A stretch of DNA of 20,679 bases from a virus. Below are positions 3,702 through 20,679 of the stretch, in pieces (the first letter of the stretch is position 1; every line of letters starts with the position of its first letter). The position numbers were made by a program, and so were the translations under genes. The stretch spans positions 1 through 20,679 of the IMG/VR virus record IMGVR_UViG_3300028800_000348, one strand, 5' to 3'. The notes below the pieces were generated by a model. That model saw nothing but the letters and a program-made list of their open reading frames with translations, searched no databases and had not been told where the DNA came from.

Positions 3702-3702
3702 G

Positions 3703-6161: not shown

Positions 6162-6164
6162 GTT

Positions 6165-6652
6165 TCACCCGGAGGACTTCGAGAGGAACGCGCGGATGAG
6201 GCTGAGGGTCTCGCCCACCAGCATCGCGCCCGCACGCGCGCGAGGCGTGTCTTCACCAGCGCGGAACGCCAGGAGGGCATCGGCAGCCGCGGAGAGCGAG
6301 CCAGCCTTGATGCGCTCGTACAGATCTAGAGCTTTTTTTCCTCGACCTCGACGCCGGCGCCGGCGAGCTCCACCAGCTTCTCGCCGAAGGTGAGCGCCAG
6401 GCCGGGCTTCTTGTCGAGCATGGCCTCGAGCTCGGCGCCAGGCGGGTAGACGATGCAGGCCCGCACCAGCGCCTCCGTGGCCTTCGACCGCTTCTTCGGG
6501 TCGGTGGCCATCTCCTGGAACCGGAGGAACTCCCCGCGCGAGGGCGCCTTGCCGATGACCTCGAAGTCCCCGCCCTTCCAGAGCCGGAGCTCGCCGTCGT
6601 AGCCGGACGCGCGAATCCTCGAGGTGATCTCACCGAGCTGCTTGTCGTCCAT
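6165..6652 (-). CDS. Tail assembly chaperone, minus-1 frameshift (long) product
   Basis: Joining 6652-6332 to the minus-1 frame gives an unbroken 162-aa product: the first 107 residues of the short chaperone plus 55 new ones. The extension begins ALDLYERIKAGSLSAAADAL, continues with a helical ETLSLIRAFL segment, and stops at TGA 6167-6165. That stop is three bases before the tape measure ATG. The shift site is A AAA AAG at 6338-6332, in exact phase with the zero frame. Most long-tailed phages make such G/G-T type products just upstream of the tape measure, where the short and long forms chaperone tape measure and tube assembly. The architecture strongly supports a real frameshift. Its efficiency cannot be seen from the sequence. 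Confidence 0.85.
6326..6652 (-). CDS. Tail assembly chaperone, short (zero-frame) product, gp41-position
   Basis: This 108-aa protein starts MDDKQLGEITSRIRASGYDG and has GGAG about 9 bases upstream as Shine-Dalgarno. It lies in the slot between tail tube and tape measure, where tail assembly chaperones are found. The small, mostly helical sequence (RGEFLRFQEMATDPKKRSKAT, then VRACIVYPPGAELEAML) is common to phage tail assembly chaperones that follow the tube gene. It ends VEVEEKKL, with GAA AAA AAG just before CTC TAG, so the stop lies directly after a slippery sequence. It is likely a chaperone absent from the mature virion; that role is known from the family and inferred here. Confidence 0.85.
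   Translation of the reverse strand: MDDKQLGEITSRIRASGYDGELRLWKGGDFEVIGKAPSRGEFLRFQEMATDPKKRSKATEALVRACIVYPPGAELEAMLDKKPGLALTFGEKLVELAGAGVEVEEKKL
6332..6338 (-). promoter_or_regulatory. Programmed minus-1 ribosomal frameshift site (A AAA AAG)
   Basis: Read on the minus strand, the zero frame is GAG GAA AAA AAG CTC TAG. The heptamer A AAA AAG is the classic, efficient bacterial minus-1 slippery sequence and is phased exactly as required. The run of seven A is exceptional in this GC-rich gene. After slippage the frame stays open for 55 codons. Just downstream, GCTC and GAGC flank an 11-base loop as a weak possible stem; a stronger stimulator was not identified. Confidence 0.85.
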
Positions 6653-6684
6653 GGTTCAGCTCTCCAGGTGGTGGTGGTGAGCGG

Positions 6685-7167
6685 CTAGAAGCCGCCGAGC
6701 GGGTCGATGATGTCGCTGACGATGGCCTGCAGCACTCCGCCGTTCGTGGAGCCGCGCACGATGCGGAAGGGGCGCAGGTCAAACTTGGTGGTCAGAGCGT
6801 CGCTGCCCTGCTGGTGGCTGTCGCCGATCTTCTTGATCGTGCACTGCACCAGCTTGTCGGTGAGGACGGAGCCCGAGTTGGGCTCGGCCTTGTGGATCAC
6901 CACGTCGAAGGGGATGCGCAGGTAGTTGGGGCCGAGCTGCGAGAGGAAGGTCTTCGCGGCCGCCGAGTACATCTCCATCGACGCGGTGTGCTTGGCGTTG
7001 CCGAGCGTGCGCGCGATGGCCTCCGACGCCGTGCCCATGACGTCCTGGCCATCGGTGTCGGTGTCGTAGTCGATGGACTTGAAGTCCAGGTACGTGATGC
7101 CGGCGAGCACGATCTCGACCGCGTTCCACTCGTGGGCGAAGCCGTTGACGATGGTGGGCTGGGACAT
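6685..7167 (-). CDS. Tail tube protein (Mu gpM/gp40-like position)
   Basis: This 160-aa protein follows the sheath gene, as in Mu (L then M). It starts MSQPTIVNGFAHEWNAVEIVL, preceded by GGAG with a 5-base spacer. The sequence is beta-rich with alternating hydrophobic residues (VEIVLAGITYLDFKSIDYD, later CTIKKIGDSHQQGSDALTT), the pattern expected for a tube protomer that stacks as rings. GTASEAIARTLGNAKHTASMEMY resembles the helix-loop-strand of tube proteins. It is somewhat longer than Mu gpM. It should form the inner channel of the contractile tail around the tape measure, with the sheath on the outside. A 24-base gap and its own Shine-Dalgarno separate it from the sheath gene, consistent with high copy number. 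Confidence 0.85.
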   Translation of the reverse strand: MSQPTIVNGFAHEWNAVEIVLAGITYLDFKSIDYDTDTDGQDVMGTASEAIARTLGNAKHTASMEMYSAAAKTFLSQLGPNYLRIPFDVVIHKAEPNSGSVLTDKLVQCTIKKIGDSHQQGSDALTTKFDLRPFRIVRGSTNGGVLQAIVSDIIDPLGGF

Positions 7168-7191
7168 GGGAGCTCCGAAGGGGATGGCGGG

Positions 7192-8619
7192 TTACGAGGC
7201 CTGCAGCGCCGGGTTCTCGAAGGCGATGTCCACGGTGATGAACTTCGCGTAGCCGAACGGCTGCACGCGCACCTTCACCGGCAGCTCCTGATCGGCGTTG
7301 ACGTTGTGCGTGCGGTCGACCAGCACGTAGGCCTTGGTCACGTGGCCTGCGAGCCCGCTGGTGAGCTCCGAGTTGACGTAGGCCTCGATGGTGCGGGCCT
7401 GCTTCTCGGTCACCGCGCCGGGGTTCTGGTCGGTGTCGGTCTGCAGCACCAGGCTGTCGTTCAGGAAGTGCAGCAGCGCCGCGCGGGCGATGGTGCAGGC
7501 CTTGTCCATCACCCGTCGGTTCTGCACGAAGGTGAAGTCCGAGCCAGGAGGCGCCAGCATGCGGCCCTGGGTGATCCAGAAGCCGGGCATGCCGATGATC
7601 GTGCGCAGCGTGGTGAGGCGCGCGGCGTCGAGCGCGGGCGTCACCTGCTCGTCGCGCTGCAGCGCCAGGACGCCCGTGAGCGCACCAGTGGCCACGCGGC
7701 CGAGGTCCTCGTGGATGGGCACCTGGGCGATGCGCGCGGCGACCTCCCAGGCGCTCGAGCGGTGCAGCTCGAGCCCGGTGACGGTCGAGAGCAGCGTCGC
7801 CGTGTCGGCGCAGGCCATCACGCGCTTCGAAGTGGTGCTCGCGAAGCCGGCGATCACGTTCGCATCGGTGTCGTGCGGCACCTCGATGATCGCGAAGGCG
7901 TAGCGGAAGTTGGCCGCCGCGCCGGCGAGGATGGTGTCCAGCGCCGCCGCCATGGACGCAGCCGCGGAAACCGTCGCGGCCGGGCCGACCACGTGCACGC
8001 AGTCCCAGAGTCGCGTGTCGGTGAGAATGGCCGCGAGCGCGCTCTCGAGCGCGGTGAGGTCGAACAGTGGCGCAGTGGTGGCGAAGCTGTAGACGTCGCC
8101 CACCACGAAGTCGGTGCCGCTGCCGTCGGTGAACGTGAGCGTCACGTTGGTGCCGGGGATCACGTACACGCCGCCCACCGGGACCGCGACCTCCTGGGAC
8201 CAGGTGTTGCCGCCGTCCAGCGAGTAGATGAAGGCCGCGGTCACGGCCGCAAGGGTTGCGCCGCCGCGGGTGATCTTCACCTTCACGTCGTACGAGTCGT
8301 ACGCCGCGCCGCTCGCGACCAGGACCGCGACGCCGGTGCCGACCTGGGTCACCGAGCCACAGGCGCCCGCCGTGCTGGAGGCGATGCGTGCGCCGAGGAC
8401 CGGGCCGCCGGCGATGTCCAGGCTCAGCGCCAGCGCGTCAACGAGCGGGCCAGCGCCGAGCGTTTCCACCAGCGTGTTCTTGTCGTTGAACGAGTAGATC
8501 TCGTTCGCCGTGCCCTGCGAGCAGATGCCGACCTTGAGGACGACGTTGTCGGTGGACTGCGGGACGAGGCCAAGGGCGCCGTCTCCGATTTGTTCAGTCA
8601 CATCTGGAAGCGTGGACAT
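7192..8619 (-). CDS. Contractile tail sheath protein (Mu gpL-like)
   Basis: This 475-aa protein is close in length to the Mu sheath. The N-terminus resembles phage sheath proteins of the DUF2586 type (LPDVTEQIGDGALGLVPQST, then KVGICSQGTANEIYSF). Residues about 90-183 form a beta-rich stretch with SLDGGNTWSQEVAVPVGGVY, an Ig-like surface insertion common in sheaths. The C-terminal part (NRRVMDKACTIARAALLHFLND, then AYVNSELTSGLAG) is the conserved core that ends in the handshake region. It contracts to drive the tube through the host envelope. The presence of a sheath establishes a myovirus-type tail. The gene has its own Shine-Dalgarno (GGAG, 10-base spacer) after a 59-base gap that contains a small hairpin. 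Confidence 0.92.
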   Translation of the reverse strand: MSTLPDVTEQIGDGALGLVPQSTDNVVLKVGICSQGTANEIYSFNDKNTLVETLGAGPLVDALALSLDIAGGPVLGARIASSTAGACGSVTQVGTGVAVLVASGAAYDSYDVKVKITRGGATLAAVTAAFIYSLDGGNTWSQEVAVPVGGVYVIPGTNVTLTFTDGSGTDFVVGDVYSFATTAPLFDLTALESALAAILTDTRLWDCVHVVGPAATVSAAASMAAALDTILAGAAANFRYAFAIIEVPHDTDANVIAGFASTTSKRVMACADTATLLSTVTGLELHRSSAWEVAARIAQVPIHEDLGRVATGALTGVLALQRDEQVTPALDAARLTTLRTIIGMPGFWITQGRMLAPPGSDFTFVQNRRVMDKACTIARAALLHFLNDSLVLQTDTDQNPGAVTEKQARTIEAYVNSELTSGLAGHVTKAYVLVDRTHNVNADQELPVKVRVQPFGYAKFITVDIAFENPALQAS

Positions 8620-8635
8620 GGTTGGTGTTCTCCGC

Positions 8636-8649
8636 GCGGCTCATGCCGC
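8636..8649 (-). other. Small hairpin 5' of the sheath Shine-Dalgarno
   Basis: GCGGC (8636-8640) and GCCGC (8645-8649) pair as a perfect 5-bp stem with a 4-base loop. In the transcript the stem ends two to three bases before the GGAG of the sheath gene. The 59-base gap holds nothing else recognisable. It may protect or shape the leader of an abundant transcript; the GC-rich background makes chance occurrence possible. Confidence 0.35.
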
Positions 8650-8678
8650 TGCAGGTGGGTTTGCCGCGAAGGTGGAGC

Positions 8679-9221
8679 TCAGCCGCCGTTCTCTTCGGTC
8701 GGCGGGTTGCCCGGCGTCTCGAGCTCGGGCGTCTCGGGGATGCTCGTGACGACCGCGGTCGGGTTGACCTGGTCGAGCACGGGGAACGCGAATTCGAAGT
8801 TGCCGACCCAGACCTCGCCAAGGTTCGACCAGGCCTGGTCAAGCCAGCCGCCGTCGAGCAGCTTGTAGCCCTTGGGCGCGATCTGGGTGATGTCGAGGTC
8901 CTGCGCGATGCCCAGGTGAATCGCAGCCAGCACCTGGGCGACGAGCGTCTCCGTGCTCGGGATGTCGGCGCCCCAGCAGTGCACCTGCACGCCGGCGTAG
9001 CGCACCATCAGCTGGCGCCCGGCCCAGGTCTTGTTGCCCGAGCCATCCACGCGCGCGACGGTGGTGCCGTTCGTGCGCTCCGCTGGACCGAACTTGTCCC
9101 GCGTGGGCACGAAAACCACGCGCGGGGGCACGGCGTCGGCCGCGAGCTGCTTCATGCCGATGATCACCGGCGTGCTGCCGAGGCGCGCGGTGACGGCGTT
9201 GACGACGTCCTGGATGGCCAT
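8679..9221 (-). CDS. Mu gp37-like protein (DUF1834-type), probable tail terminator
   Basis: This 180-aa protein starts in a TGATG overlap with the virion morphogenesis gene. It has MAIQDVVNAVTARLG, then VPPRVVFVPTRDKFGP, and VRYAGVQVHCWGADIPSTETLVAQVLAAIH. This is the helix-strand-strand layout of tail terminator/gp37-like proteins that cap the tube at the neck. The region around WVGNFEFAFPVLDQ is a further core strand. The C-terminal tail (PETPELETPGNPPTEENGG) is Pro/Glu-rich and likely flexible. It sits right before the sheath gene, as in Mu. Mu carries a tiny gp38 at this point; no counterpart is visible here. The function is inferred from fold style and position. Confidence 0.75.
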   Translation of the reverse strand: MAIQDVVNAVTARLGSTPVIIGMKQLAADAVPPRVVFVPTRDKFGPAERTNGTTVARVDGSGNKTWAGRQLMVRYAGVQVHCWGADIPSTETLVAQVLAAIHLGIAQDLDITQIAPKGYKLLDGGWLDQAWSNLGEVWVGNFEFAFPVLDQVNPTAVVTSIPETPELETPGNPPTEENGG

Positions 9222-9784
9222 CAGATCCCGAAGAGGGTCTCCATGAACGCCGCGACCTCGTCGTCGAAGTCGGCGAGCCAGACGGGGCCGAGATCGTTCT
9301 CCGGCACCATCTGGCGCTGGGGAATGATCACCTGCTTCGTCTTCACCCAGTGCCCATTGGGCAGCTTGAAGATCAGGTAGTTCGAGCCCACCTTCCGGGT
9401 GCGCTTGATGGTGTTGTCGTTGGCATCCTCGCGGTAGGTCGTGACCTTCCGCGCGCCGGTTGCCTTGATCGTCGCGCCGTACTGGTGCACGCCCGCGTAC
9501 TTCACGGCCGTGGTCAGCCGGAAGTTGTCGCCGGCGGCCTTGAAGTTGAAGCTGTTCGCGAGGCGCCCCGTGTCGCGCAGCGTCTGGCCGCCCCGCCCTG
9601 CAGGCGCCCAGGCGCGGCCGTACGGATCCACGCCCTGCTCGAACTCCAGGCCCACGCGGGTCTGCGCGGCCGCGCCCAGCAGCTGGTTCAGCTCGCGCTT
9701 CGCACCGGCGCCGCCGAGCTCACGCAGCGCCTGCTCGAGCTGGCGCGCCTGGCCGTTGTCGCCAACGATCCGGAGCAGCGGCAC
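9221..9784 (-). CDS. Phage virion morphogenesis protein (Mu gpG / P2 gpS-like)
   Basis: This 187-aa protein starts from GTG at 9784-9782; the ATG at 9789 is out of frame. The family signature is clear: RVGLEFEQGVDPYGRAWAPA, then GGQTLRDTGRLANSF, and later VKYAGVHQYGA. These are hallmarks of the virion morphogenesis family, involved in tail completion and head-tail joining. In Mu the corresponding gene (G) lies between F and I in the head cluster. Here it follows the gp36-like gene, so the order differs. The ending (VWLADFDDEVAAFMETLFGI) is typical of the family. It overlaps the next gene by TGATG. The gap to the gp36-like gene is only 4 bases, so translation is likely coupled. Confidence 0.88.
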   Translation of the reverse strand: MPLLRIVGDNGQARQLEQALRELGGAGAKRELNQLLGAAAQTRVGLEFEQGVDPYGRAWAPAGRGGQTLRDTGRLANSFNFKAAGDNFRLTTAVKYAGVHQYGATIKATGARKVTTYREDANDNTIKRTRKVGSNYLIFKLPNGHWVKTKQVIIPQRQMVPENDLGPVWLADFDDEVAAFMETLFGI

Positions 9785-9788
9785 GGCA

Positions 9789-10187
9789 TCACCAGCCTCG
9801 AGGCGTGTCGGAGATCACCAGCGGCGCCGCCGGCGAGGTGCCGTCTGGCGTGCTGTCGACGAGCGCGGGGGCCACCACGCCATTGGACACGTCACGGAGC
9901 CAGCGCATCGCGTCGTCGTAGCCCTTCACGATGATCTGGTCCGCGCCGTTCTCCGGGTTGAAGCCGCGCGCCTTGAGCAGGTCGTATGCAGCGATCCCGC
10001 AGACCGCGCGCTTCAGCCCGGTGTCCGGCGTGACGATGGGCAGCGTGTACCTCGCCCGCAGGTAGCCGTCCGCGACACCGCTTGCGGCGTCGAGAGCGGC
10101 CTGCTGCACCGTGCCCGAGATCCCCGCCAGAGCTGCAGCGGAGATCCCGAACGAGGTCAGGTCTGTGGGCGAGGCGTAGCTGCTCAT
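9789..10187 (-). CDS. Mu gp36-like protein (DUF1320), head-tail connector candidate
   Basis: This 132-aa protein begins MSSYASPTDLTSFGISAAAL. It has the DUF1320 pattern ASGVADGYLRARYTLPI followed by KRAVCGIAAYDLL and a YDDAMRWLRDVSNG helix. This family is found next to the major head gene in Mu-like phages and resembles head-completion adaptor proteins (HK97 gp6-like). It probably sits on the portal ring to join head to tail; this is inferred. The final 25 residues are loop-like. It starts three bases after the gp35-like stop. Confidence 0.88.
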   Translation of the reverse strand: MSSYASPTDLTSFGISAAALAGISGTVQQAALDAASGVADGYLRARYTLPIVTPDTGLKRAVCGIAAYDLLKARGFNPENGADQIIVKGYDDAMRWLRDVSNGVVAPALVDSTPDGTSPAAPLVISDTPRGW

Positions 10188-10190
10188 GGG

Positions 10191-10418
10191 TTACTTCGTG
10201 GTGTCCTGCTTCGCCGGGTCCTTCGCGGGCTGCTTCGCGGGCTGCTTCGCGGGGGGCTCGGGCTCTTCGGCAGGGGCCTCCACGCACACGATGTTGCCGT
10301 CGGCCTTGATCGCCGCGAGCTGCTTCTCGTCGACGTCGATCTCCGTGTTGCCGTCGGGGATGAACTTGCCGGCGCGGCGGTGGCCGCCCTTCATGCGCGA
10401 ACAGACGATGACCTTCAT
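10191..10418 (-). CDS. Mu gp35-like small protein with Lys/Pro/Ala repeat tail
   Basis: This 75-aa protein is found where Mu has gp35. The N-terminal 50 residues (MKVIVCSRMKGGHRRAGKFI, then DGNTEIDVDEKQLAAIKADG) form a compact domain seen in HI1506/gp35-type Mu-like proteins. The rest is a charged low-complexity tail of PAKQ-like units encoded by 12-bp tandem repeats. The function of the family is not established; a capsid-associated or connector role is only suggested by location. It has its own Shine-Dalgarno (GAGG, 7-base spacer) after a 55-base gap with a hairpin. Confidence 0.75.
   Translation of the reverse strand: MKVIVCSRMKGGHRRAGKFIPDGNTEIDVDEKQLAAIKADGNIVCVEAPAEEPEPPAKQPAKQPAKDPAKQDTTK
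10206..10253 (-). repeat. Four 12-bp tandem repeats in the gp35-like gene
   Basis: Four consecutive 12-base units occur here, the last two identical (plus-strand ctgcttcgcggg at 10230-10241 and 10242-10253). Two diverged copies come first (10206-10217 and 10218-10229). They encode the repeating Lys-Gln/Asp-Pro-Ala tail. The unit is in frame, so the copy number could vary between related phages without breaking the gene. Confidence 0.85.
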
Positions 10419-10429
10419 GGGTGGACCTC

Positions 10430-10459
10430 GGCGGCGAGCTCGAGCTGCAGCCCGCCGCC
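10430..10459 (-). other. Hairpin between major capsid and gp35-like genes
   Basis: GGCGGCG (10430-10436) and CGCCGCC (10453-10459) form a perfect 7-bp stem around a 16-base loop; the loop contains the self-complementary AGCTCGAGCT. It lies in the 55-base gap just after the major capsid stop. No T-run follows in the direction of transcription, so it is not a standard terminator. It could be a processing or 3'-protection element lowering expression of the genes beyond the capsid. The evidence is structural only. Confidence 0.4.
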
Positions 10460-10473
10460 AGCTTGGGGTTGGG

Positions 10474-11415
10474 TTACGCGATCTTCAGGCGAGCGGCGAG
10501 CCACCAGGGGCCGTAGCCCGCGGCGCCGCGCGCGCGCACGCCCGCGAGGTACTCGTCCACGTCGAACACGTGGGGGTCCTCGGGGTTGTAGCGCGGCGTG
10601 AACACCGCCGGGTCGCGCTCCTGGAAGATGAACGGCTTCACCGGCATGCGGCAGTCCAGCAGATACACGTAGTCGGGCGTGTCCGCGAGGCGGCCCGAGG
10701 TGACCACGTCGGCCATGCCCTTGAGCTGGTTGTCGATGGCCGCGGCCGCGTTCGAGCCCACCGCCTGGGCGATGATCGTGGCGTTGAAGATCTGCTTCGC
10801 CTTGTACTCGGACTGCGGCGGCACCAGCAGGACGTTCGGGTTCACGTCGAGCGGGTCGCCGTTCGCGCCCTTGAACGCGCGCATCTTGGCGAAGGCGTCG
10901 GCGATGTTGTCCGAGGTGAGACCGCCCGAGCTCGAGTAGTCGATGTCGTTCGACTGGGTCGCCGAGTTCGGGTTGTCCATGTCCACCGGGTGGTCGGTGT
11001 CGAAGAAGTACTGGTTGTCGTACACCGTGGTGGAGCTCGCGGCCTTGAGGGCAGCGATCACCAGGTTCTCGGGCCAGAGCTTCGAGGACACGCCCATCAT
11101 GCGGACGTAGTCGGAGTACATGCCCGCGGTGTCGTCCTCGAGCTTGGTGCGGCGGATGCCGACGGTGAGCTCGTAGAGCTCGTTCACCAGGCGCTGGGCG
11201 CGCAGGCTGAGCTGGTTGATGACGCGCGGGCCGTACCACTTGCGGAGCAGCGGCACGAGGTCGAGCCAGCCGTAGACCTCGTCCTCATGGACGGAGGTCT
11301 TCTTGCTGGCGATCTTCTCCCAGATGGTTCCCTGGTTCTGCAGGGCCTCCTGGAACTGGAGGTCGAGGCCATGGAAGAAGGACTCGAGCAGCGAGGGCGT
11401 CAACGGCGTGGGCAT
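10474..11415 (-). CDS. Major capsid protein (Mu gpT-like)
   Basis: This 313-aa protein clearly belongs to the Mu-like major head subunit gpT family. It begins MPTPLTPSLLESFFHGLDLQ. The ASKKTSVHEDEVYGWLDLVPLLRKW segment near residues 36-60 is the family hallmark, followed by GIRRTKLEDDTAGMYSDYVR. The central FDTDHPVDMDNPNS is also typical of gpT proteins, as is the ending VRARGAAGYGPWWLAARLKIA. It builds the HK97-fold icosahedral shell with the help of the nested scaffold and the I-like protease encoded upstream. The gene has a 62-base leader with a hairpin and a GGAG Shine-Dalgarno 6 bases from ATG, which fits high expression. Confidence 0.95.
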   Translation of the reverse strand: MPTPLTPSLLESFFHGLDLQFQEALQNQGTIWEKIASKKTSVHEDEVYGWLDLVPLLRKWYGPRVINQLSLRAQRLVNELYELTVGIRRTKLEDDTAGMYSDYVRMMGVSSKLWPENLVIAALKAASSTTVYDNQYFFDTDHPVDMDNPNSATQSNDIDYSSSGGLTSDNIADAFAKMRAFKGANGDPLDVNPNVLLVPPQSEYKAKQIFNATIIAQAVGSNAAAAIDNQLKGMADVVTSGRLADTPDYVYLLDCRMPVKPFIFQERDPAVFTPRYNPEDPHVFDVDEYLAGVRARGAAGYGPWWLAARLKIA

Positions 11416-11427
11416 GGTGGTCTCCGT

Positions 11428-11443
11428 GGGCGCGAGGGCGCCC
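11428..11443 (-). other. Hairpin 5' of the major capsid Shine-Dalgarno
   Basis: GGGCGC (11428-11433) and GCGCCC (11438-11443) are exact complements around a 4-base loop. The hairpin lies just upstream of the GGAG of the major capsid gene, with the same placement as the hairpin before the sheath gene. The rest of the 62-base gap shows no promoter I would support. It is possibly an mRNA-stabilising or RBS-exposing structure. Confidence 0.45.
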
Positions 11444-11477
11444 GGTCAGGTGTTCGGCGTGTGTGGTTGAGCCCTGG

Positions 11478-11918
11478 TTACAGGCCGATGCCGAGGAGCA
11501 CCTGCACGGTGCCGTCGGCGTTGAGGTCGTGGATCTTCCCGGCGCGCGAGCGCGAGGCCGAGCCGTCGGTCTTGGCCACCGTCTGGTCGTCGACCCAGTA
11601 GCAGTCCTTGCCGATGTCGGCCTGGTGGATCTGGTCGGTCGACGTGCTGTTGTTGAACGAGAACACGCCGGCCTCGGCGGTGCAGTACAGCGCGCCGTCG
11701 GCGCCGCCGGTGTTGTCGACGGGCTGGCCGTCGCCCGGGTCGGCCACGCCCACCGAGATGAGGCCGGTGGCCGCGGTGGCGGGCGCGAGGTAGCCGCCGT
11801 TCAGCACCACGCCGGCGCCAGGGTAGATCTTCACGCTGGCCTTCACCGGGCGCGTCTGGCGCATGGAGAGGACTTCGGTGCCGTTGCGGGGCATCTTCTT
11901 CGCGGCGGACAGGGACAT
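11478..11918 (-). CDS. Capsid decoration-like protein (DUF2190-type)
   Basis: This 146-aa protein lies between the protease/scaffold and the major capsid. It has GAGVVLNGGYLAPATAATGL, then NSTSTDQIHQADIGKDCYWVDDQTVAKTD, and ends RAGKIHDLNADGTVQVLLGI. Small beta-rich proteins of this kind (DUF2190-like) occupy this slot in many Mu-like and lambda-like head clusters and are regarded as head decoration or stabilisation proteins. GAGG lies about 8 bases before its ATG. The exact family is judged from pattern and place; it could also be a minor head protein of unknown role. Confidence 0.75.
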   Translation of the reverse strand: MSLSAAKKMPRNGTEVLSMRQTRPVKASVKIYPGAGVVLNGGYLAPATAATGLISVGVADPGDGQPVDNTGGADGALYCTAEAGVFSFNNSTSTDQIHQADIGKDCYWVDDQTVAKTDGSASRSRAGKIHDLNADGTVQVLLGIGL

Positions 11919-11954
11919 GGTTCGTTCCTCGTGTGTTGGTGAGTGTGGGAGCGG

Positions 11955-12485
11955 TTACGCCTGGGCGGCGTCCGCCTTCTTCTTGGCGAGGAAGTCCTTC
12001 TCGGAGATCCCCAGCATCTTCGCGACGGCCTTGTCGTCGGCGCTGAGCGTGGCCAGGTCGCCGTTGGGCTCGGTCTTCTTCTCGTCGCCCGGCTTCGTCT
12101 CCTTGGTGGTGACGAGCTTGGGCGCGTCCTTCAGGAACGCCTTGAGCATGGCCACGTCCTTCTTGCCGTGCTCGAGCCAGAAGGCCTTCTGCGCCGGCGT
12201 GATCTTGCCGTCGCGCACGCCGCCGTCGACGAGCGCGGCGACTTCCTTGTCGGCCTGCTCGGCCTTGAGCTTGGCGAGCTCGGCCTCCGCGGCGTCGAAC
12301 TTGTCGGCCTTCGCCTTGAGCGCGGCCACGATGCCCTTGGCCTCGGACACGTCCTTGGCGCCGGTGAGCTTCACCAGGTCCTGCTCGAGCTCGTCGTGGC
12401 GGGTCTCGCGCGCGTGGAGCACGGCGAGCGCCTCAGCCTCGGTGGAGTCGTCCTTCAGGCCCAGCTTCGCGAGCAGCGTCTTCAT
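11955..12485 (-). CDS. Nested head scaffold protein (Mu gpZ-like internal start)
   Basis: An in-frame ATG at 12485-12483 corresponds to Met163 of the protease. It is preceded by GAGGAG at 12500-12495 with a 9-base spacer, a strong Shine-Dalgarno. The product would be 176 aa, starting MKTLLAKLGLKDDSTEAEAL, with a coiled-coil-rich middle and the C-terminal ISEKDFLAKKKADAAQA. In Mu, gene Z is made from such an internal start at the 3' end of gene I, giving an excess of scaffold over protease. The match in design supports a real nested gene. Direct proof needs N-terminal data. Confidence 0.8.
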   Translation of the reverse strand: MKTLLAKLGLKDDSTEAEALAVLHARETRHDELEQDLVKLTGAKDVSEAKGIVAALKAKADKFDAAEAELAKLKAEQADKEVAALVDGGVRDGKITPAQKAFWLEHGKKDVAMLKAFLKDAPKLVTTKETKPGDEKKTEPNGDLATLSADDKAVAKMLGISEKDFLAKKKADAAQA

Positions 12486-12971
12486 GGTCGGTTTCTCCTC
12501 TTCGCCCGCGTGGGGCTTGGTGGTGGCCGCCACGAGCGGCTGCTGGCCGTGCGTCGCGGGGTCGTTCGTCAGCGCGATGTTCTTGAGCTCGAGCACGCGG
12601 CGCGTCGCCAGGTCGAAGTGGAACGCCGGGCTGAAGTAGCGGTACTCGCCGTTCTTCAGGTACTCGCTGGCGCGCGGCGTCCAGCGGACATCGGTGGCCC
12701 AGAGGCCGTCCGCGCGCAGCTCGATCTTGTACCAGCCAGCCGCGGGCGCTCCCGTGGGCAGCGGCGGGTTCTCGAGGGACGCGTGCTCGTAGTCGAGCGA
12801 GTACTCGATGCCGCGCCGCTCCGATGCAGCCAGCACCGCTTTCGCCGCGGCCTGGTCGAAGAGGAACCTGCCCTTCTCGGTGCCCGCTTCTCCGAGCGCG
12901 AAGATCTTGAACTCCTTCGGCGGCTCCTTGCTGGCGTCCAGGATGGCAGTGGCGAGCTTGGCGAGCAGCAT
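11955..12971 (-). CDS. Head maturation protease with fused scaffold (Mu gpI-like)
   Basis: This protein has 338 aa. I take the ATG at 12971-12969, which overlaps the gpF stop as TGATG; an in-frame extension to 13046 lies inside gpF and is not needed. The N-terminal half is protease: SLDYEHAS (candidate catalytic His63), GWYKIELRADGLWATDVRWT, and EYRYFSPAF (candidate Ser114). This resembles the gpI/U35-like assemblin prohead proteases. The second half is helical and highly charged (DKFDAAEAELAKLKAEQADK) and acts as scaffold. A strong internal start at 12485 allows separate production of the scaffold. The catalytic assignments are inferred from motif spacing. Confidence 0.9.
   Translation of the reverse strand: MLLAKLATAILDASKEPPKEFKIFALGEAGTEKGRFLFDQAAAKAVLAASERRGIEYSLDYEHASLENPPLPTGAPAAGWYKIELRADGLWATDVRWTPRASEYLKNGEYRYFSPAFHFDLATRRVLELKNIALTNDPATHGQQPLVAATTKPHAGEEEKPTMKTLLAKLGLKDDSTEAEALAVLHARETRHDELEQDLVKLTGAKDVSEAKGIVAALKAKADKFDAAEAELAKLKAEQADKEVAALVDGGVRDGKITPAQKAFWLEHGKKDVAMLKAFLKDAPKLVTTKETKPGDEKKTEPNGDLATLSADDKAVAKMLGISEKDFLAKKKADAAQA
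12495..12500 (-). promoter_or_regulatory. Shine-Dalgarno of the nested scaffold start
   Basis: On the minus strand GAGGAG lies 9 bases before the internal ATG at 12485. It is among the strongest Shine-Dalgarno matches in the window, although it sits inside a coding region, and it decides the call of the nested gene. Confidence 0.75.
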
Positions 12972-13693
12972 CAGGTCCTCTTCTTCTCCTTGGCCTCGTA
13001 GGCCTGGCGCAGCTCCGGCGGGTACTTCGACAGGTCTGGCGTCCACGGCTTCTCGACGTTGCCGAAGCCGTCCAGCGCCTCAACCGCCGGCGCCTTCTCA
13101 GCGATGCCCATGGCCTCGGCCTGCGTGCGCGTGAGCGCGAGCAGGTGCGAGCGGCAGCCGAAGTGCAGCGGCGGCTGGTGCGACTTCCACGCCGGGTCGT
13201 CCGCCGGGAGGATGGTGCCGTTCCAGTGCTCGCAGACCAACGTGGTCCGTCCGTCGAGCACCGCCGAGTACTTCCAGAACGGCCGGCGCTTCAGCACCAC
13301 CGGGTTCTGCAGCATCTCCACCGTGCCCGCGCCGTACGCGTGCTGAACGTTGGTGCGGAAGATGGTCTCCAGCCGCGCCGGGTTCTTCCGGCCCCAGTGC
13401 TGCTCGAGCTGCGCGCCCACGTCCCGCTTGAACTCGTCGAACGTGGTGCCGCTGGCGACGGCCTTGTCGAGCGCCTCCCAGACCTCGTTCACCAGGTCGA
13501 GCTCGGCGACGCCGGCGATCACGAACGCCTGCTCATGCGAGGCCTGCACCAGCGCCTTGAACACATCCCAGCCCATGGGCACGCGGGCGCGGAACGCGCG
13601 CACCGCCTGCTCGAACTGCAGCGGATCTGCGGCTGGCTCCGGCTCGTCGTCGCCCGTGGGGCTGGCGATCAGCTTCGCCAGGTCCTCAAGCAT
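12971..13693 (-). CDS. Minor head protein, Mu gpF / SPP1 gp7-like
   Basis: This 240-aa protein overlaps the portal gene by 8 bases. The family signature is clear: RLETIFRTNVQHAYGAG at about residues 108-123 and YSAVLDGRTTLVCEHWNGTI at 142-161. Next comes HQPPLHFGCRS at 172-182. The C154/H156 and H172/H177/C180/H183 set is characteristic of phage Mu F-like head morphogenesis proteins and may bind a metal. Such proteins are few per virion, associate with the portal, and may be injected with the DNA. The protein is shorter than Mu gpF, which is a common state in this group. The C-terminus ends EAKEKKRT. Confidence 0.9.
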   Translation of the reverse strand: MLEDLAKLIASPTGDDEPEPAADPLQFEQAVRAFRARVPMGWDVFKALVQASHEQAFVIAGVAELDLVNEVWEALDKAVASGTTFDEFKRDVGAQLEQHWGRKNPARLETIFRTNVQHAYGAGTVEMLQNPVVLKRRPFWKYSAVLDGRTTLVCEHWNGTILPADDPAWKSHQPPLHFGCRSHLLALTRTQAEAMGIAEKAPAVEALDGFGNVEKPWTPDLSKYPPELRQAYEAKEKKRT

Positions 13694-15443
13694 CGTCGAG
13701 CACCGAGCGCTGCCCGGCGAGCTCGGCCAGCACGGTCGCGCGCTCCACGAGCATCACGAGCTGCGAGAAGTTCATGTTCGCGTAGGCAGTCACCAGCCGG
13801 CGCCGCAGGTCGGCCGGGCTCGTCGAGAGCTGGACGAGTTGCTTCAGGTGCTGCAGGTCCACGTCCAGCACGTTGGCGCTGTGCGCGGTGGCCTTCTCCA
13901 CCAGGAGATCGATGTACGACTGCCCGCGGCGAGCCCCGGGCGGCAGCGTGTCGCGGCCGCTGAGTTGCTCCTGGCCGGGCTTCGGCGGCGGCGCCCCGCC
14001 CTCGCCCGCGTCGTCTGGCTGCCCCTGCTGCTGCATCGCCTGCTGGGCTTGCGCGGCCCGCTCTGCGGCCTCCTGCTTCTGCTTGGCCTCTTCCTCGGGC
14101 GAGAGCAGCGGCACGCCCTGCTCCTCGAGCAGCGCGCGGACGTCGACGGGCGCGGCCGAGGTCTTCACGGCGGTGAGGAACGTGCCGAGCTTCTGCAGCC
14201 CGTCCGCCGTCTGCTGCGTGTCCTCGGGCGGCTCCGTCTGCCAGGCCGGGAACGGCGCGAGCTCCGCGTCGCCCTGGTTGAACTGCGCGTACGGCTGCAG
14301 CGCCTGCTCCTGGATGGCGCCGCCCAGCTTGAGCGCGTCGCCGGCCTGGAAGTCCTTGCGCACCTTGTCGTGGACCTGCGCGGCCGCGCGCGAGCCCTCG
14401 TGCACCTCGGTGGTCAGGTTCTGGCCGAGCAGCACGATGGCGATCGCCGTGTCGGCGTGCTCGAGCAGCTTGTCGAAGCCCTCCCACGTGTTGGCCATCG
14501 CCTCCACGAGCTCGAGGCTGAACTTCGTGCCGTCCGGCAGCGTCACGGCCTCGATCGTCGTGTTCGAGCCGAGCGCTGCGACGGCTCGCACGAACTTCTG
14601 GCGGTCCTCGAGCGTCGCCGTCTGCGGCACGTTGGCCACCTTGATGGCCGAGCCCTGCACTTCGCTGTGGCGCGCCCAGTCGCGGCGAGCGAACGCACGG
14701 ATCAGCCACGGCAGCGCCAGCGCGCGCACCTTCGCGCGCATCCAGCCGCGCTTGTAGCCGTACGGCATGAAGAGCAGCCACTTCGCGTCGACGCCGTCGA
14801 GCGGGTTCTGCAGCTCCACCGAGCCCTGCTCGGTGTTGACCTTGTAGGTCCGCGTGGACCAGTCCCACCAGATCTGCCGCGGGTTCCAGGTGTCGATGCG
14901 CGGCACCCAGCCGTCCGGGCCCGTCTTCCACACGAGCTCGGCCAGGCCGGCGTTGAGCATGATGCCCCAGCGCAGCAGCTCCTCGAGGTCGGCCTGGGGG
15001 AACATCTTTCCCCAGCGCGCCTTGATCTCCTTCGCCAGCTCGAGCTCGGCGTCCGGCGCCTCGTCGTCGCCGCTCGGCGGGTTGAAGTCCAGCGGCAGCG
15101 AGAGCAAGCCGTTGATGCGCGTGTCCAGTACGCCGCTGATCCGGTCGTCGCGCAGCATCGCGTCGCACAGGTCCGCGGCCGAGCGGAACATGCCGCGCTC
15201 GAGCTCGATGAGCGCGCGGCGCACCTTCTCGACGAGTTCGAAGTAGCTGTCCGGCGAGACCGGGAGCTCGCGGTACGAGACCGTGGGCGCCGACATCGGG
15301 ACCGTCGCAACCTCGGTCGGGCGCTTCTTGGGCGCCTGCGAGGGCAACGCTGTGGGCGCGGCCGGCTTCGGGGCCGCCAGTGCCGCCGTGGGCTCCTGCG
15401 GGCGCCGGTAGACCTCGGGCTGTCGGTGGTGACGGCGGCTCAT
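13686..15443 (-). CDS. Portal protein (DUF935, Mu gp29-like)
   Basis: This 585-aa protein starts in a TGATG overlap with the large terminase stop. After a Pro-rich N-terminal 50 residues it shows the Mu gp29 portal layout: CDAMLRDDRISGVLDTRINGLLS, then LEELLRWGIMLNAGLAELVW, and later WWDWSTRTYKV. The core continues with WLLFMPYGYKRGWMRAKVR and DTAIAIVLLGQNLTTEVHEGS. The portal forms the dodecameric DNA gate at one capsid vertex, and the terminase docks on it. Residues about 450-500 are a Gln/Ala/Pro-rich low-complexity linker (RAAQAQQAMQQQGQPDD). This is followed by a helical domain (YIDLLVEKATAHSANVLDVD) of the type found in DUF935 portals. Length is typical or slightly long. Confidence 0.92.
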   Translation of the reverse strand: MSRRHHRQPEVYRRPQEPTAALAAPKPAAPTALPSQAPKKRPTEVATVPMSAPTVSYRELPVSPDSYFELVEKVRRALIELERGMFRSAADLCDAMLRDDRISGVLDTRINGLLSLPLDFNPPSGDDEAPDAELELAKEIKARWGKMFPQADLEELLRWGIMLNAGLAELVWKTGPDGWVPRIDTWNPRQIWWDWSTRTYKVNTEQGSVELQNPLDGVDAKWLLFMPYGYKRGWMRAKVRALALPWLIRAFARRDWARHSEVQGSAIKVANVPQTATLEDRQKFVRAVAALGSNTTIEAVTLPDGTKFSLELVEAMANTWEGFDKLLEHADTAIAIVLLGQNLTTEVHEGSRAAAQVHDKVRKDFQAGDALKLGGAIQEQALQPYAQFNQGDAELAPFPAWQTEPPEDTQQTADGLQKLGTFLTAVKTSAAPVDVRALLEEQGVPLLSPEEEAKQKQEAAERAAQAQQAMQQQGQPDDAGEGGAPPPKPGQEQLSGRDTLPPGARRGQSYIDLLVEKATAHSANVLDVDLQHLKQLVQLSTSPADLRRRLVTAYANMNFSQLVMLVERATVLAELAGQRSVLDDA

Positions 15444-16882
15444 CAGAAGGTGCGCCTCGGCATTTCGACCCCGGTGAACATCTGGCCGGAGAGCATGGCG
15501 GCCTGGTCGTGGGCCGCGGCGAGCGCGTCCACGTCGTCGTCATGCTTGTCTTTGACGCCCGTGAAGTTGTGGATCACCGTCACGAACGGGTTGGCCCACG
15601 GCACGGGCATCGGGACCAGCACGTCGCCCTTCTTCTGCGAGGGCATGAGGATGTCGCCGCGGTTCCAGGCCGCCGCAGCGGGCTGGGCGCGGATGAACTT
15701 GTCAGCGCTCGCCTGGATCCCCATCAGCGGCACGGCGCCATCGCCGGTGCGCATCAGGTCCACCACGCCCTTCTCAGGGCCGGCGTAGTAGGTGCGCCAG
15801 GTGGCGCTCGGGTACTTCTGGTGCAGCGCGCGCAGCTTTGCCTTGAACGCCGGCGCGTCCACCTGCTCGCGGAGCACCTCGAGCACATAGAACCTGTCGC
15901 GCTTCAAAGTCGCGTCGTACTTGGCGGCCAGCACCACCGCGATCGAGTAGTCGGCCGAGGTCTTCGCCGAGTACGCCAGGTCGACGCCGATCGCGACGCG
16001 GTAGCCCTCGGTGGGCGCCACGTCGTACAGGTGCACGCCGTTGAAGACGGCGCTGCCACGCGGCCGCGGGTCGCCCTGGTACAGCGACGCCCAGGTGTAC
16101 GGGCCCACGCTGAGCTTCTTCTGCTCGAGCAGCTTCGCCGTCCAGCGCTGCGGCCAGAGCACCTCGCCGGCATCCGAGAGCGCCGGCATCTTGATGTTCT
16201 TCCACAGGTGGCCAGCTTCGCCGCCGAGCACGTGCCCGATCAGGTCGTCGTTGACCCACCGGGTGTGGAAGATGAACGCGCTGCCGCCTGGCTCGAGGCG
16301 CGTCTCGGCGACGTCGTCCTGCCAGTCGCTCACCATCGCCCGGTACGAGGCCGATTCGGCCTGCAGGCGGTTCTTGTACGGGTCGTCAACGAGCAGGATG
16401 TCGACGCCCTGCGAGGTCAGCGGTCCGCCGATGCCGGTGGCCAGCAGCCCACCGCCCTGGCGCGTGCGCCACTCGTTGAGCGACGTGGTGACCAGCTCCA
16501 CGCCGGCCTGCAGCGCCCACTGCTGCGCCTTGCGGCTCTTCGACTTCGCCGTCCGATCCTCGTACGTGACGTACGCGAGGGTCTTGTGCGGCAGCTGCTT
16601 CAGCGTGTCCGCGATGAACGCGAGCACGGTGTCCGTCTTCGCGTGGCGCGGCGGCGCGTGGGCCGTGACGCGCACCGACCTGGTCCAGCTGGCCTCGAGC
16701 TCCTGGACGAGCGGATCCAGGTGGCGCGGCGCCTGGAAGCGCGGGTTCAGCCGCGGGATGAAGTCATAGAGCGGCCCGGGCTCAATGCCGTTCCGGCTCC
16801 GGATCGTCGGCCCGGCCTGGTGCAGTGTCTCCCGCAGGCGCTGCAGGGACCGCACCCGCTGAATCATTCCGGCGATCGCCAC
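15443..16882 (-). CDS. terL: Terminase large subunit (ATPase-nuclease)
   Basis: This 479-aa protein starts from GTG at 16882; an ATG at 16867 (Met6) is an alternative. The ATPase part has APPRHAKTDT (76-85), a P-loop in which Ala replaces the usual Gly of GKT. It is followed by LAYVTYEDRTAKSKS and Walker B DILLVDDPYK (161-170), with the coupling region FHTRWVNDDLIG. The RNase H-like nuclease shows IGVDLAYS (Asp301) and a C-terminal DDDVDALA. It cuts and pumps DNA into the prohead through the portal. The 5' end overlaps the small subunit gene by about 100 bases, a larger overlap than elsewhere in the window. Confidence 0.93.
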   Translation of the reverse strand: MAIAGMIQRVRSLQRLRETLHQAGPTIRSRNGIEPGPLYDFIPRLNPRFQAPRHLDPLVQELEASWTRSVRVTAHAPPRHAKTDTVLAFIADTLKQLPHKTLAYVTYEDRTAKSKSRKAQQWALQAGVELVTTSLNEWRTRQGGGLLATGIGGPLTSQGVDILLVDDPYKNRLQAESASYRAMVSDWQDDVAETRLEPGGSAFIFHTRWVNDDLIGHVLGGEAGHLWKNIKMPALSDAGEVLWPQRWTAKLLEQKKLSVGPYTWASLYQGDPRPRGSAVFNGVHLYDVAPTEGYRVAIGVDLAYSAKTSADYSIAVVLAAKYDATLKRDRFYVLEVLREQVDAPAFKAKLRALHQKYPSATWRTYYAGPEKGVVDLMRTGDGAVPLMGIQASADKFIRAQPAAAAWNRGDILMPSQKKGDVLVPMPVPWANPFVTVIHNFTGVKDKHDDDVDALAAAHDQAAMLSGQMFTGVEMPRRTF

Positions 16883-18112: not shown

Positions 18113-18355
18113 TCACGGCGCGTTGTCCTTCGGGTCCTTCTCGAGCCGGACCGTGAGCGGGTCTGCAACCTGGATCACCGCCAGCACGTCACGCACGCCG
18201 TCGAGGCTGTCAGAGACTTCGCGAAGCCCCTGCCCCAAGCGGTCCGCCAGCACCTCGGTCGCGCTGGTTTCCTCGCCGATTCCAGCCGCCTGTCGAACCG
18301 CGCGAGCCAACTCCCGGATGGCTTCGGCAATCAGTTTCGCTCCCTCGTCGGTCAT
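18113..18355 (-). CDS. Small protein of unknown function (80 aa)
   Basis: This protein starts with the ATG at 18355-18353, which overlaps the stop of the replication initiator gene by ATGA. The upstream in-frame extension to 18688 lies within that gene and is a shadow. The sequence begins MTDEGAKLIAEAIRELARAV and is predicted helical (LADRLGQGLREVSDSLDGVR), then ends in a charged tail. The tight coupling to the replication gene suggests a shared role (for example helicase loading or initiator modulation), but no motif supports a specific function. Confidence 0.7.
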   Translation of the reverse strand: MTDEGAKLIAEAIRELARAVRQAAGIGEETSATEVLADRLGQGLREVSDSLDGVRDVLAVIQVADPLTVRLEKDPKDNAP

Positions 18356-19392
18356 GCGCTCTCCCTCGCTGGCGGAAGTGCCAGCAGCTCGTAGTCCTCG
18401 GCGTCGAGCTTGCCCGGTCCCCACGTGGACTGCTTCGCCACGCTGACCAGCTGCGCGACCTTCGCCGCGGTGAAGAACGCCTGCAGGCACAGGCTCGGAT
18501 TGCGACTGCTCGCGTAGGGCTCGTCTCCGCCCTCGCACCACGCGATCCAGGCCTTGCTCAGCCACTCGCGCCCGTGGAGCGCCACGTGCTGCGCGTGCAG
18601 CTGGTTCAACCGCCCAGGATGCATCCCGGGATCTGCGTCGCCCCGGCACAGCGGGGAGTCCACTCGCCTGAGGCTCGCCCAGGCCCACCAGAGCTCAGCC
18701 TCGCTGGGCTGGTGGTCGAACTGCGCGGTCACGCCGCGCGTGTACGGCACGGGGTACGGCTGCATCGAGCGCTTCTCGCGCTTGCGCTTCGTGGGCTTCT
18801 GGGGGGCCGCGTCTTGCACGGTCAGGAGCGCCTGACCCTCGCGTGCCGGCGGCGGCGCGGCAACGCGCTCTGGCGCGTCAGCGCCAGCATCTTGTTCCTG
18901 ATCCTGATACTGCTTCTGATACTGCTTCTGGCTTCGAAGGGCCTTCGAAGGGGCTTCGAAGGGCCTCGCCTCCGGACGGGGCATCGGGAGCGAGAACGAG
19001 TCCCAGTACCTTTCAACGAAGTTGCCGAAGAACTTGGAGTTTTTGTACTGGTCGACCAGGTCGACGACGAACTTTGCCCGGTTGTCTGAGGCCTTCATTC
19101 CGGCCCCGATCTGGATCCGGGCCATCTCCGGCACCCAAACCACCTCCGAATCGGGGTCGTAGAACGCGAAACCCTCACTTTCTACCCTTCGAAGGGCCTT
19201 CGAAGCCCCTTCGGCGGTAAGCCCGGTCTCGTGAAGGATCGTGGGCCACGGCAGGTAGTACAGCCCCACCATGTTGGCGGACGGACAGCTCACGAAGTAG
19301 ATGGCCAGCACCTGGGCTTCGAGATCACCACGCAGAGCCTTGCCGGTGCTGCCCGTCCAGAACGCCGGCAGGAGCTTCCCGTACGTGCGCAT
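18352..19392 (-). CDS. Replication initiator / DnaD-like winged-helix protein
   Basis: This 346-aa protein begins MRTYGKLLPAFWTGSTGKAL. Residues about 41-82 (YYLPWPTILHETGLTAEGAS, then ALRRVESEGFAFYD) form a winged-helix DNA-binding domain of the kind found in phage replication initiators and replisome organisers. The middle (145-215) is a flexible Gln/Lys/Pro/Ala-rich linker. The C-terminal domain (PSEAELWWAWASLRRVDSPL, then WLSKAWIAWCEGGDEP) is helical. It is coupled to the helicase gene by TGATG. Together they form a replication pair like initiator plus helicase/loader. The gene carries two clusters of 11-bp boxes in the coding DNA, which suggests that the origin lies inside its own initiator gene, as in lambda O. 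Confidence 0.75.
   Translation of the reverse strand: MRTYGKLLPAFWTGSTGKALRGDLEAQVLAIYFVSCPSANMVGLYYLPWPTILHETGLTAEGASKALRRVESEGFAFYDPDSEVVWVPEMARIQIGAGMKASDNRAKFVVDLVDQYKNSKFFGNFVERYWDSFSLPMPRPEARPFEAPSKALRSQKQYQKQYQDQEQDAGADAPERVAAPPPAREGQALLTVQDAAPQKPTKRKREKRSMQPYPVPYTRGVTAQFDHQPSEAELWWAWASLRRVDSPLCRGDADPGMHPGRLNQLHAQHVALHGREWLSKAWIAWCEGGDEPYASSRNPSLCLQAFFTAAKVAQLVSVAKQSTWGPGKLDAEDYELLALPPARESA
18904..18927 (-). repeat. 12-bp tandem repeat in the initiator linker
   Basis: CTGATACTGCTT is present twice in tandem (18904-18915 and 18916-18927), partly echoed before and after. It encodes the Gln-Lys-Gln-Tyr repeats of the linker. It directly abuts the first TTCGAA cluster, so the two may have been shaped together. 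Confidence 0.8.
18931..18963. repeat. Iteron-like cluster 1: three 11-bp CTTCGAAGGG boxes
   Basis: Three head-to-tail 11-bp units occur here with TTCGAA at 18933, 18944 and 18955, spaced exactly 11 bp. Each core CTTCGAAG is itself a palindrome. The first 19 bases from 18932 are identical to a segment of cluster 2 (19187-19205). It lies in the linker-coding part of the initiator gene, where reading-frame constraints are loose. Confidence 0.8.
19048..19059. repeat. 12-bp perfect palindrome between the two box clusters
   Basis: CTGGTCGACCAG is a perfect palindrome near the midpoint between the two TTCGAA clusters, next to a locally AT-richer tract (around 19010-19047). It may be part of a candidate origin, or chance. 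Confidence 0.4.
19186..19218. repeat. Iteron-like cluster 2: two and a half 11-bp CTTCGAAGGG boxes
   Basis: TTCGAA occurs at 19188 and 19199, with a degenerate TTCGGC at 19210, again every 11 bp. It shares the 19-base string CTTCGAAGGGCCTTCGAAG with cluster 1, 255 bp apart. It encodes the recognition-helix part of the winged helix (Ser-Lys-Ala-Leu-Arg), the same residues as in cluster 1. Confidence 0.75.
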
Positions 19393-20633
19393 CAGTTCTC
19401 GTCCTTTTCAGCGATCCGGCGGTCCGCGCCGGACACGCGAAGCGGCTGCTGCTCGGGCTTGCGGCGCTCTGCGAATTCCTTCACGCGCACGCGCCACTTT
19501 CCGAGGTCGCGGTCACGCTCGAACACGCCCTCGTCGAAGAGCAGCTGCTTGCCCTCGATGTACGCGCCGCGCGTGATCCCCAGGCCCTTCGCCAGGCCGG
19601 CCAGGAGCCCCTCGTCGTCCACCCAGGTCCCACGCACCTTGTAGAGCTCGTCGAAGATGGCGTCCGCGGCAGCGTTGCGCTCGGCCTTGGTGGCCTTCTT
19701 CGACTTCCTCGAGCTCGCGGCCTCGTTCACCTCGCGCGCGGTGACGTCGCAGAGCTCGACGAACTGGAACGCGCCGCCCTTGCCCACGCTGCTCTCGCGC
19801 TCTACGAGCTCGAAACGAATGGACCGCGGCCGCTGCGCGAGGTTGCCCTTCACGTAGGCCATGATCCGGCGATTCGGATCCGCGGGGTCCGGGCCCACCA
19901 CGTACTCGGCCTTGGCCATGCCTGAGAAGGCGATGGAGCCGCTGCCGAGGTTGATGGCCGCGCCCTCGCCGCGCTTGTTCTGGTGGCGGATGGCGATGCA
20001 CGCCAGGTCGAGCCGGGCCAGCGTGGCGCTCAGCACGCCCATCGCGGGGCGCACGTGCTGCTCGCTGTTGTAGTTGAGCTCGGGGTCGAGCAGCGTCACC
20101 AGGCCGTCGACGACGAGCAGCCCGATCGGCTTGCCGTTGGCCCTCTCACGCCTGACCATCGCCTCGAAGGCGTCGGCGCGGCTGGGGAAGGTGAGGAGCG
20201 AGCTGGGTCTCTTCGGATCCCAGCGCAGGTGGTCGACGCGCTCCATCACCACGCCGTGCCGCTCGAGGCGCGGGCCGATGTGCAGCGCCGGGTCCTCTTC
20301 GATGGTCACCCAGAGCACGTTCATCGGCTCGCGCGGGCCCGGCGACGGATCCCAGGGCACCGACTCGCCGCGCGTGACGCACCCGACGATCTCCGAGACC
20401 GCGGTGGTCTTGCCCTGGTCGGGCATTCCCTGGATGTTCACGTAGGCGCCGAACGGGATGTATCCGGACACCATCCACGAGATCGGCTTCAGCTCCACGT
20501 CGCGCGCGAAGTTCTGCAGCTCGAAGCCATCCGGCGCGGCCTCGTCAGGCTTAACGACGCGCAGCTGGCGCGGCTCGGCCGCGGGCTCGTTGAACGACCG
20601 CTTGATCCACTCGGGCTCGTCGAAGTCAGCCAT
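19392..20633 (-). CDS. RepA-like replicative helicase / AAA-type ATPase (RecA fold)
   Basis: This 413-aa protein starts with an ATG preceded by GAGG 7 bases upstream. The ATPase core has Walker A GMPDQGKTT (69-77), WVTIEEDPALHIGPRLER (a strand with acidic residues, about 108-125), and Walker B LLVVDGL (172-178). IAIRHQNKRGEGAAINLGSG follows at about 213-232, the signature of the RepA/AAA_25 hexameric helicase group (RSF1010 RepA-like). The C-terminal 100 residues look like a winged helix (WVDDEGLLAGLAKGLGITRG). It probably unwinds DNA at the origin together with the initiator encoded next. An alternative is a RecA-like ATPase for DNA recombination, but the neighbour supports replication. Confidence 0.85.
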   Translation of the reverse strand: MADFDEPEWIKRSFNEPAAEPRQLRVVKPDEAAPDGFELQNFARDVELKPISWMVSGYIPFGAYVNIQGMPDQGKTTAVSEIVGCVTRGESVPWDPSPGPREPMNVLWVTIEEDPALHIGPRLERHGVVMERVDHLRWDPKRPSSLLTFPSRADAFEAMVRRERANGKPIGLLVVDGLVTLLDPELNYNSEQHVRPAMGVLSATLARLDLACIAIRHQNKRGEGAAINLGSGSIAFSGMAKAEYVVGPDPADPNRRIMAYVKGNLAQRPRSIRFELVERESSVGKGGAFQFVELCDVTAREVNEAASSRKSKKATKAERNAAADAIFDELYKVRGTWVDDEGLLAGLAKGLGITRGAYIEGKQLLFDEGVFERDRDLGKWRVRVKEFAERRKPEQQPLRVSGADRRIAEKDEN

Positions 20634-20679
20634 TTGCCGCCCTCAAGAACTCGTGCACGCCCAATGTCACGCACGCGGC
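20626..20679 (-). CDS. C-terminal end of an upstream gene (partial)
   Basis: The last 17 codons of an open frame enter from the right edge and stop at TGA 20628-20626, overlapping the helicase start by 8 bases. The residues (including TLGVHEFLRAANG) look like a normal protein ending, and the overlap resembles the portal/F junction. It is too short to name, and a chance open frame cannot be excluded. Confidence 0.4.
   Translation of the reverse strand, partial: AACVTLGVHEFLRAANG

Follow-up and report, generated by a model that had tools for sequence, protein, structure and literature searches.

Does a phage initiator gene carry, within its own coding sequence, the site at which replication starts? 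The question is raised by a 20,679-nt stretch of viral DNA (IMG/VR record IMGVR_UViG_3300028800_000348, positions 1 to 20,679; hereafter the window), in which the gene of a winged-helix protein holds short palindromes at a regular spacing.

Phased boxes in the gene of a winged-helix protein

The box is the 8-bp palindrome CTTCGAAG. It occurs in two clusters in the initiator gene, with a spacing of 11 bp throughout (Table 1), and the 19-mer CTTCGAAGGGCCTTCGAAG is found at both 18932 and 19187, exactly 255 bp apart. A sequence-only reading of the window had described clusters of three and of two and a half boxes in exact 11-bp phase as well as the repeated 19-mer; both descriptions were confirmed, the clusters with exact coordinates and against null models. 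Six exact 8-mers were found in the window, five of them clustered, whereas an order-1 Markov null (300 simulations) gave an expectation of 0.32, a maximum of three boxes and no 11-phased pair. Within the gene, TTCGAA occurs five times, against a mean of 0.44 and a maximum of 3 in 5000 synonymous codon shuffles. Since both nulls lie far below the observed counts, base composition, the protein and codon usage do not explain the boxes. Isolated TTCGAA sites are located at 2339, 2392, 7826, 8793 and 15237 and, as had been claimed, none of the five is clustered in phase.

Table 1. Features of the initiator locus in window coordinates
Feature	Position	Strand	Description
Winged-helix initiator gene	18352..19392	-	ORF, 346 aa; PHROGs phrog_25210 / 12196 / 1701; AlphaFold2 wHTH
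RepA-like hexameric helicase gene (AAA_25)	19392..20633	-	PF13481, E 2.3e-17
Cluster 1 (HTH)	19187..19213	.	CTTCGAAG at 19187 and 19198, half box at 19209; codons 61-69 (EGASKALRR)
12-bp palindrome CTGGTCGACCAG	19048..19059	.	found in 1/88 nonredundant family genes
AT-richer stretch	18988..19051	.	5' to the linker array in the direction of the gene; family AT excess
Cluster 2 (linker array)	18932..18961	.	CTTCGAAG at 18932, 18943 and 18954; codons of PFEAPSKALRS
Period-6/12 purine-rich tract	18888..18931	-	CC(AGAAGCAGTATC)2AGGATCAGGAACAAGATG, directly after the linker array

The window protein matched the PHROGs families phrog_25210 (E 7.6e-54), phrog_12196 (E 1.5e-44) and phrog_1701 (E 1.8e-34). 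These three are labelled 'DnaD-like helicase loader' and are matched by 52/52 members of the family; phrog_6251, a 'replisome organizer', is matched by 12/52. No credible match to Pfam or NCBIfam was obtained for the initiator: the Pfam replication-O family was matched by 0/52 members at E 0.1, PF06970 (RepA_N) gave no match in the Pfam search, and searching PDB sequences with the profile of the family returned no relative. By its sequence, the initiator is a member of neither the lambda O nor the RepA_N family.

AlphaFold2 (52 relatives) predicted a confident winged helix, with a mean pLDDT of 87 for the window protein, and placed the recognition helix at residues 60-72 (pLDDT about 98). One array sits in the codons of this DNA-reading helix (codons 63-69) and the other in the linker past the winged helix-turn-helix (codons 145-154), the division that the sequence-only reading had proposed. 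The top Foldseek matches in the PDB were the N-terminal domains of the RepA plasmid initiators, 5kbj, 4pql and 4pt7 (Z 6.5-6.7, rmsd 3.5-3.6 over 86-87 residues), with which CRP-type domains tied in a second look. Because CRP-type regulators score equal to RepA, the fold alone does not mark an initiator. Lambda O was absent from the Foldseek matches, and this absence was not counted as evidence.

The proposed neighbour, a RepA-like helicase, was also recovered. Its gene is transcribed just ahead of the initiator gene, and its stop codon overlaps the initiator start. In relatives, a DnaB-type helicase, an IstB/DnaC-type loader or a primase comes after the initiator; 17/20 neighbour ORFs tested encode DnaB-type helicases, IstB/DnaC-type loaders or primase-type proteins. 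In named phages the family gene stands where O stands in lambda, with CI/Cro/CII ahead of it and DnaC behind. One scan gave 579 relatives, and the family occurs in elements of Acinetobacter, Klebsiella, Escherichia and Burkholderiales. Three 'plasmid' carriers (Klebsiella CP069825, K. variicola, Ideonella) do not prove autonomous replication, being prophage-like pieces or lying on larger replicons. The N-terminal winged helix is common to the relatives and the C-terminal halves vary widely past codon 170; the putative origin-bearing linker looks like a recombination joint between the two. In the window itself, a Mu-like head/tail module (681-16882, with a PF06074 portal at 13686-15443) is paired with this lambda/RepA-style replication module, and Mu transposition genes are absent within the 20.7-kb fragment.

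Selection on the boxes at the DNA level

Relatives with about 45% protein identity, from Acinetobacter, Klebsiella and E. coli phages, retain the helix codons GAA GGG GCT TCN AAG GGG CTT, and their linker DNA is near-identical. Synonymous destruction of the boxes, set beforehand as refuting, was not seen. Codon choice was then scored over 160 codon columns in 31 nonredundant genes selected at the protein level only, with peptide patterns that avoid the boxes. When the columns were ranked by synonymous constraint, box codons of the HTH and the linker took 14 of the first 15 places, and the remaining one fell to codon 2, at the gene start. Gly62 was encoded by GGG in 28/28 genes (6.9 expected), Leu67 by CTT in 29/30 (3.4 expected), Ala63 by GCT in 27/29 (5.4 expected), the linker Pro by CCT in 24/25 (5.4 expected) and the linker Arg by CGA in 16/20 (2.3 expected). 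An 11-phased box pair was present in 24 of the 31 genes.

A larger, partly DNA-selected set of 88 nonredundant genes contained 453 boxes, against 141 +/- 9 in synonymous shuffles. Neighbouring boxes were exactly 11 bp apart in 209 pairs, against 10 +/- 3, and the boxes occupied all three codon frames. A DNA-only pattern, two boxes and a half box in 11-bp steps, was found in 112 viral contigs, in 106 of them inside an ORF of the initiator family, and the same pattern with 10-bp or with 12-bp spacing had no match in the viral collection. DNA-level selection on the boxes is thereby confirmed.

The box arrays are absent from a few divergent relatives (L005, L007). Two others, L076 and L120, have a different recognition helix (DRATAAL), and L076 carries helix codons with no box and has kept its linker boxes. 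The persistence of linker boxes without helix boxes in L076 suggests that the linker array is the core.

Cluster distance and the flanking tracts

The distance between the nearest boxes of the helix and linker clusters ranges from 209 to 278 bp in the relatives. It varies stepwise, by roughly a turn of the helix at a time, and its remainder modulo 11 is 0-3 in 72/79 genes. Among 20 independent sister pairs with altered distance, 12 differ by 1 modulo 11 where 4 are expected (P = 1e-4), a slightly generous count in that 2 of the 20 pairs include the possibly frameshifted L048 and L078. Such shifts prevail though indels of 3 or 6, which keep the reading frame, should come about most easily. These observations suggest that both clusters work together, presumably by looping or wrapping of the DNA between them.

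The purine-rich tract next to the linker array was overlooked in the sequence-only reading, though it lies partly inside the interval marked there. In most relatives, CC and then (CARGAR)n follow directly past the last linker box. The position-averaged purine content is 79% at 20-40 nt past the box (t = 21 for the tract), and the autocorrelation across the family is 0.60 at lag 6 and 0.56 at lag 12, against 0.28 elsewhere. This tract, only mildly AT-rich (AT +0.085), is a candidate unwinding or single-stranded DNA element. A second candidate unwinding region is the AT-richer stretch, located in relatives 60-120 bp ahead of the point where the linker array ends. Its AT content exceeds the gene mean by 0.11 to 0.13 (t about 11), and its third-position AT is 0.42 against 0.34 (t = 6.3). 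Of the two features that had been pointed out between the clusters, this stretch proved to be a family feature; the 12-bp palindrome is real but was judged incidental and set aside as an origin part because of its rarity in the family (Table 1).

Taken alone, the hexamer tract might be a flexible Gln/Glu linker grown by slippage, a reading compatible with an origin at the boxes and one to which we would give a little less than an even chance. Its length is highly variable and the synonymous CAA/CAG and GAA/GAG positions vary, in agreement with slippage. The usual reading of the tract is Gln-Glu; in L035, L060 and L118 it is Gly-Thr/Gly-Ala, with long C-terminal halves beyond. The junction pattern from box to tract matches at least 120 contigs in the viral collection, and lies in the family gene in 125/126 contigs examined, 115 with the Gln-Glu reading and 10 in a different frame. 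The junction and hexamers of these 10 contigs speak against a linker grown by slippage, as do the hexamers CAGATC, AGAGAT and CAGACT, which replace the usual ones at the tract position in some relatives. The linkers of L048 and L078, in another frame, were dropped as natural experiments because they look frameshifted or truncated.

A probable intragenic origin, its alternatives and known systems

Phased boxes are also found outside the initiator gene. At L021:2729-3229, and in an identical stretch of L049, a non-coding element flanked by a head-protein gene and the ORF that follows combines TTATCCACA, 70% AT DNA, four 11-bp-phased boxes and (CAGATC)7; no ORF in it reaches 90 aa. TTATCCACA is DnaA-box-like and is the sole DnaA-box match of its 11-kb locus. 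The two contigs are identical over 6.9 kb, and both are fragments beyond which the initiator may lie. Since the element is non-coding, its layout is not attributable to protein coding, and it looks like a free-standing origin. A second phased array in L116 (13517-13560) is far from that contig's own initiator gene (4603-5773), just past an apparent stop codon and ahead of an endolysin-like reading frame. In L041, a contig with no recognisable initiator gene, an array at 3180-3270 stands beside a 12-bp repeat tract of the GCAACGGCACC type.

The kept codons, the use of all three frames, the confinement to one family, the 11-bp-only spacing and the non-coding copy support the earlier proposal of a lambda-like origin candidate in the initiator gene, more strongly than it had been claimed. 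From the anatomy of the locus, that is, the protein family, the lambda O-like position, the helicase or loader neighbour and the unwinding-type tracts, we infer that the boxes and tracts very probably constitute an intragenic theta origin of the lambda O / SPP1 oriL type, with an architecture of its own. The position, the helicase, loader and primase neighbours and the RepA domains among the best structural matches, tied as these are with CRP-type domains, together make such an origin by far the best explanation. GC skew decides nothing on this point: two phages, Acinetobacter phage A785.1 and E. coli phage CharmingMan, have detrended minima about 0.6 kb or less from the gene, but transcription changes direction at the same place.

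It is worth considering that a winged-helix protein with palindromic boxes is what one would see in a repressor system, and that CRP-like domains are among the structural neighbours. The boxes could be operators, through which this protein or another regulator controls its own operon or blocks transcription through that operon. We regard this as improbable: a promoter scan of 18300-20679 found no sigma-70-like promoter, the clusters lie deep inside the coding region with helicase or loader neighbours and a period-6 tract adjoining, and L021 carries the element intergenically between head genes, beside AT-rich DNA. Phased palindromes are known also from centromere-like and packaging sites. A partition, packaging or recombination site placed by chance inside a replication gene is nevertheless very unlikely, as the array falls within the initiator family in 106/112 contigs and no recognisable partition gene adjoins it within the window. 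Hardly credible is a selected peptide (SKxLR) common to linker and recognition helix, with the DNA likeness secondary, for although the two clusters share one frame and the peptide E-G/A-A/P-S-K-x-L-R, codon choice far exceeds protein need and refutes this as the sole cause, a step of 11 bp is no whole number of codons, boxes turn up in every frame, the tract DNA is read in differing frames and a non-coding copy exists.

At an intragenic origin of this kind, the N-terminal winged helix would bind the palindromes, probably as a dimer and one per box, and the 11-bp recurrence would stack the protein on one DNA face in each cluster. The two roughly in-phase clusters may be joined in a looped or wrapped complex. 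Release of strain could open the AT-rich stretch, the neighbouring period-6 purine tract or both, and the C-terminal half of the initiator might deliver the helicase (RepA/DnaB-like) or the loader (IstB/DnaC-type) to the exposed strand. More tentatively, the locus might be a phage 'basal unwinding system', in which initiator dimers stacked on palindromes in 11-bp phase would extend past the last box to cover a register-locked hexanucleotide tract in its single-stranded form. It would be a period-6 counterpart of the DnaA-trios, with linker evolution enslaved to helical phase and hexamer register; we find this conceivable, with the balance clearly on the other side.

Intragenic origins are already known from lambda O and SPP1 oriL. 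In lambda and the Stx phages, the origin lies in the middle of the initiator gene, inverted-repeat iterons are followed by an unwinding tract, and the loader gene comes next; the iterons are four to six imperfect inverted repeats of ~19 bp in a single cluster, plus an AT-rich tract (PMC7466680). The present genes resemble lambda O in having origin-like repeats between the DNA-binding domain and the C-terminal half, and in the post-CI-Cro-CII position of the named relatives. Unlike in lambda, the repeats are 8-bp palindromes at 11-bp intervals, grouped into two phased clusters of which one falls in recognition-helix codons, and ~19-bp iterons were not found. Beside the linker repeats lie the period-6, purine-rich tract on one side and the AT-richer stretch on the other. 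The initiator does not match the lambda O family in sequence. SPP1 has direct repeats and a DUE inside the gene of its replisome organizer gp38 (oriL) and a second origin, oriR, in the late region (PMC6316719). The intragenic layout is similar, and the extra arrays of L116 and L021 may be likened, by layout only, to the second origin (PMC6316719); SPP1, however, is a Gram-positive phage.

Among plasmids, the RepA_N initiators (pSK41 and pTZ2162 RepA; PLE RepA) bind semi-palindromic iterons (PMC7145576). RepA domains are the best initiator-type structural neighbours here, level with the CRP-type domains, but PF06970 is not matched and the RepA_N iterons are inverted repeats of other spacing that converge on a poly-A tract. 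At bacterial oriC, double-stranded DnaA boxes are followed at short distance by the short-period DnaA-trio tract (PMC8287927). The present boxes are likewise followed by a short-period tract; the period, however, is 6 and not 3, a phage initiator takes the place of DnaA, and the candidate single-stranded DNA element lies in coding DNA. A DnaA box was found in the first 700 nt of 2/87 family genes. The open-access library searched, which leaves subscription papers uncovered, held no description of the element. It differs from the known intragenic origins in its box and phase, in having two clusters, one of them written in recognition-helix codons, and in a tract of period 6.

If this interpretation is true, a large family mostly known as hypothetical proteins or 'DnaD-like helicase loaders' would have an origin that can be read from the sequence, and hundreds of phages seem to hide their replication start inside the gene of the putative opening protein. 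It would be a clear case of dual coding, in which the recognition-helix codons and the linker length appear to be held by DNA function. Origin opening would then become testable with minimal parts, namely 8-bp boxes, an 11-bp phase and a 6-bp tract.
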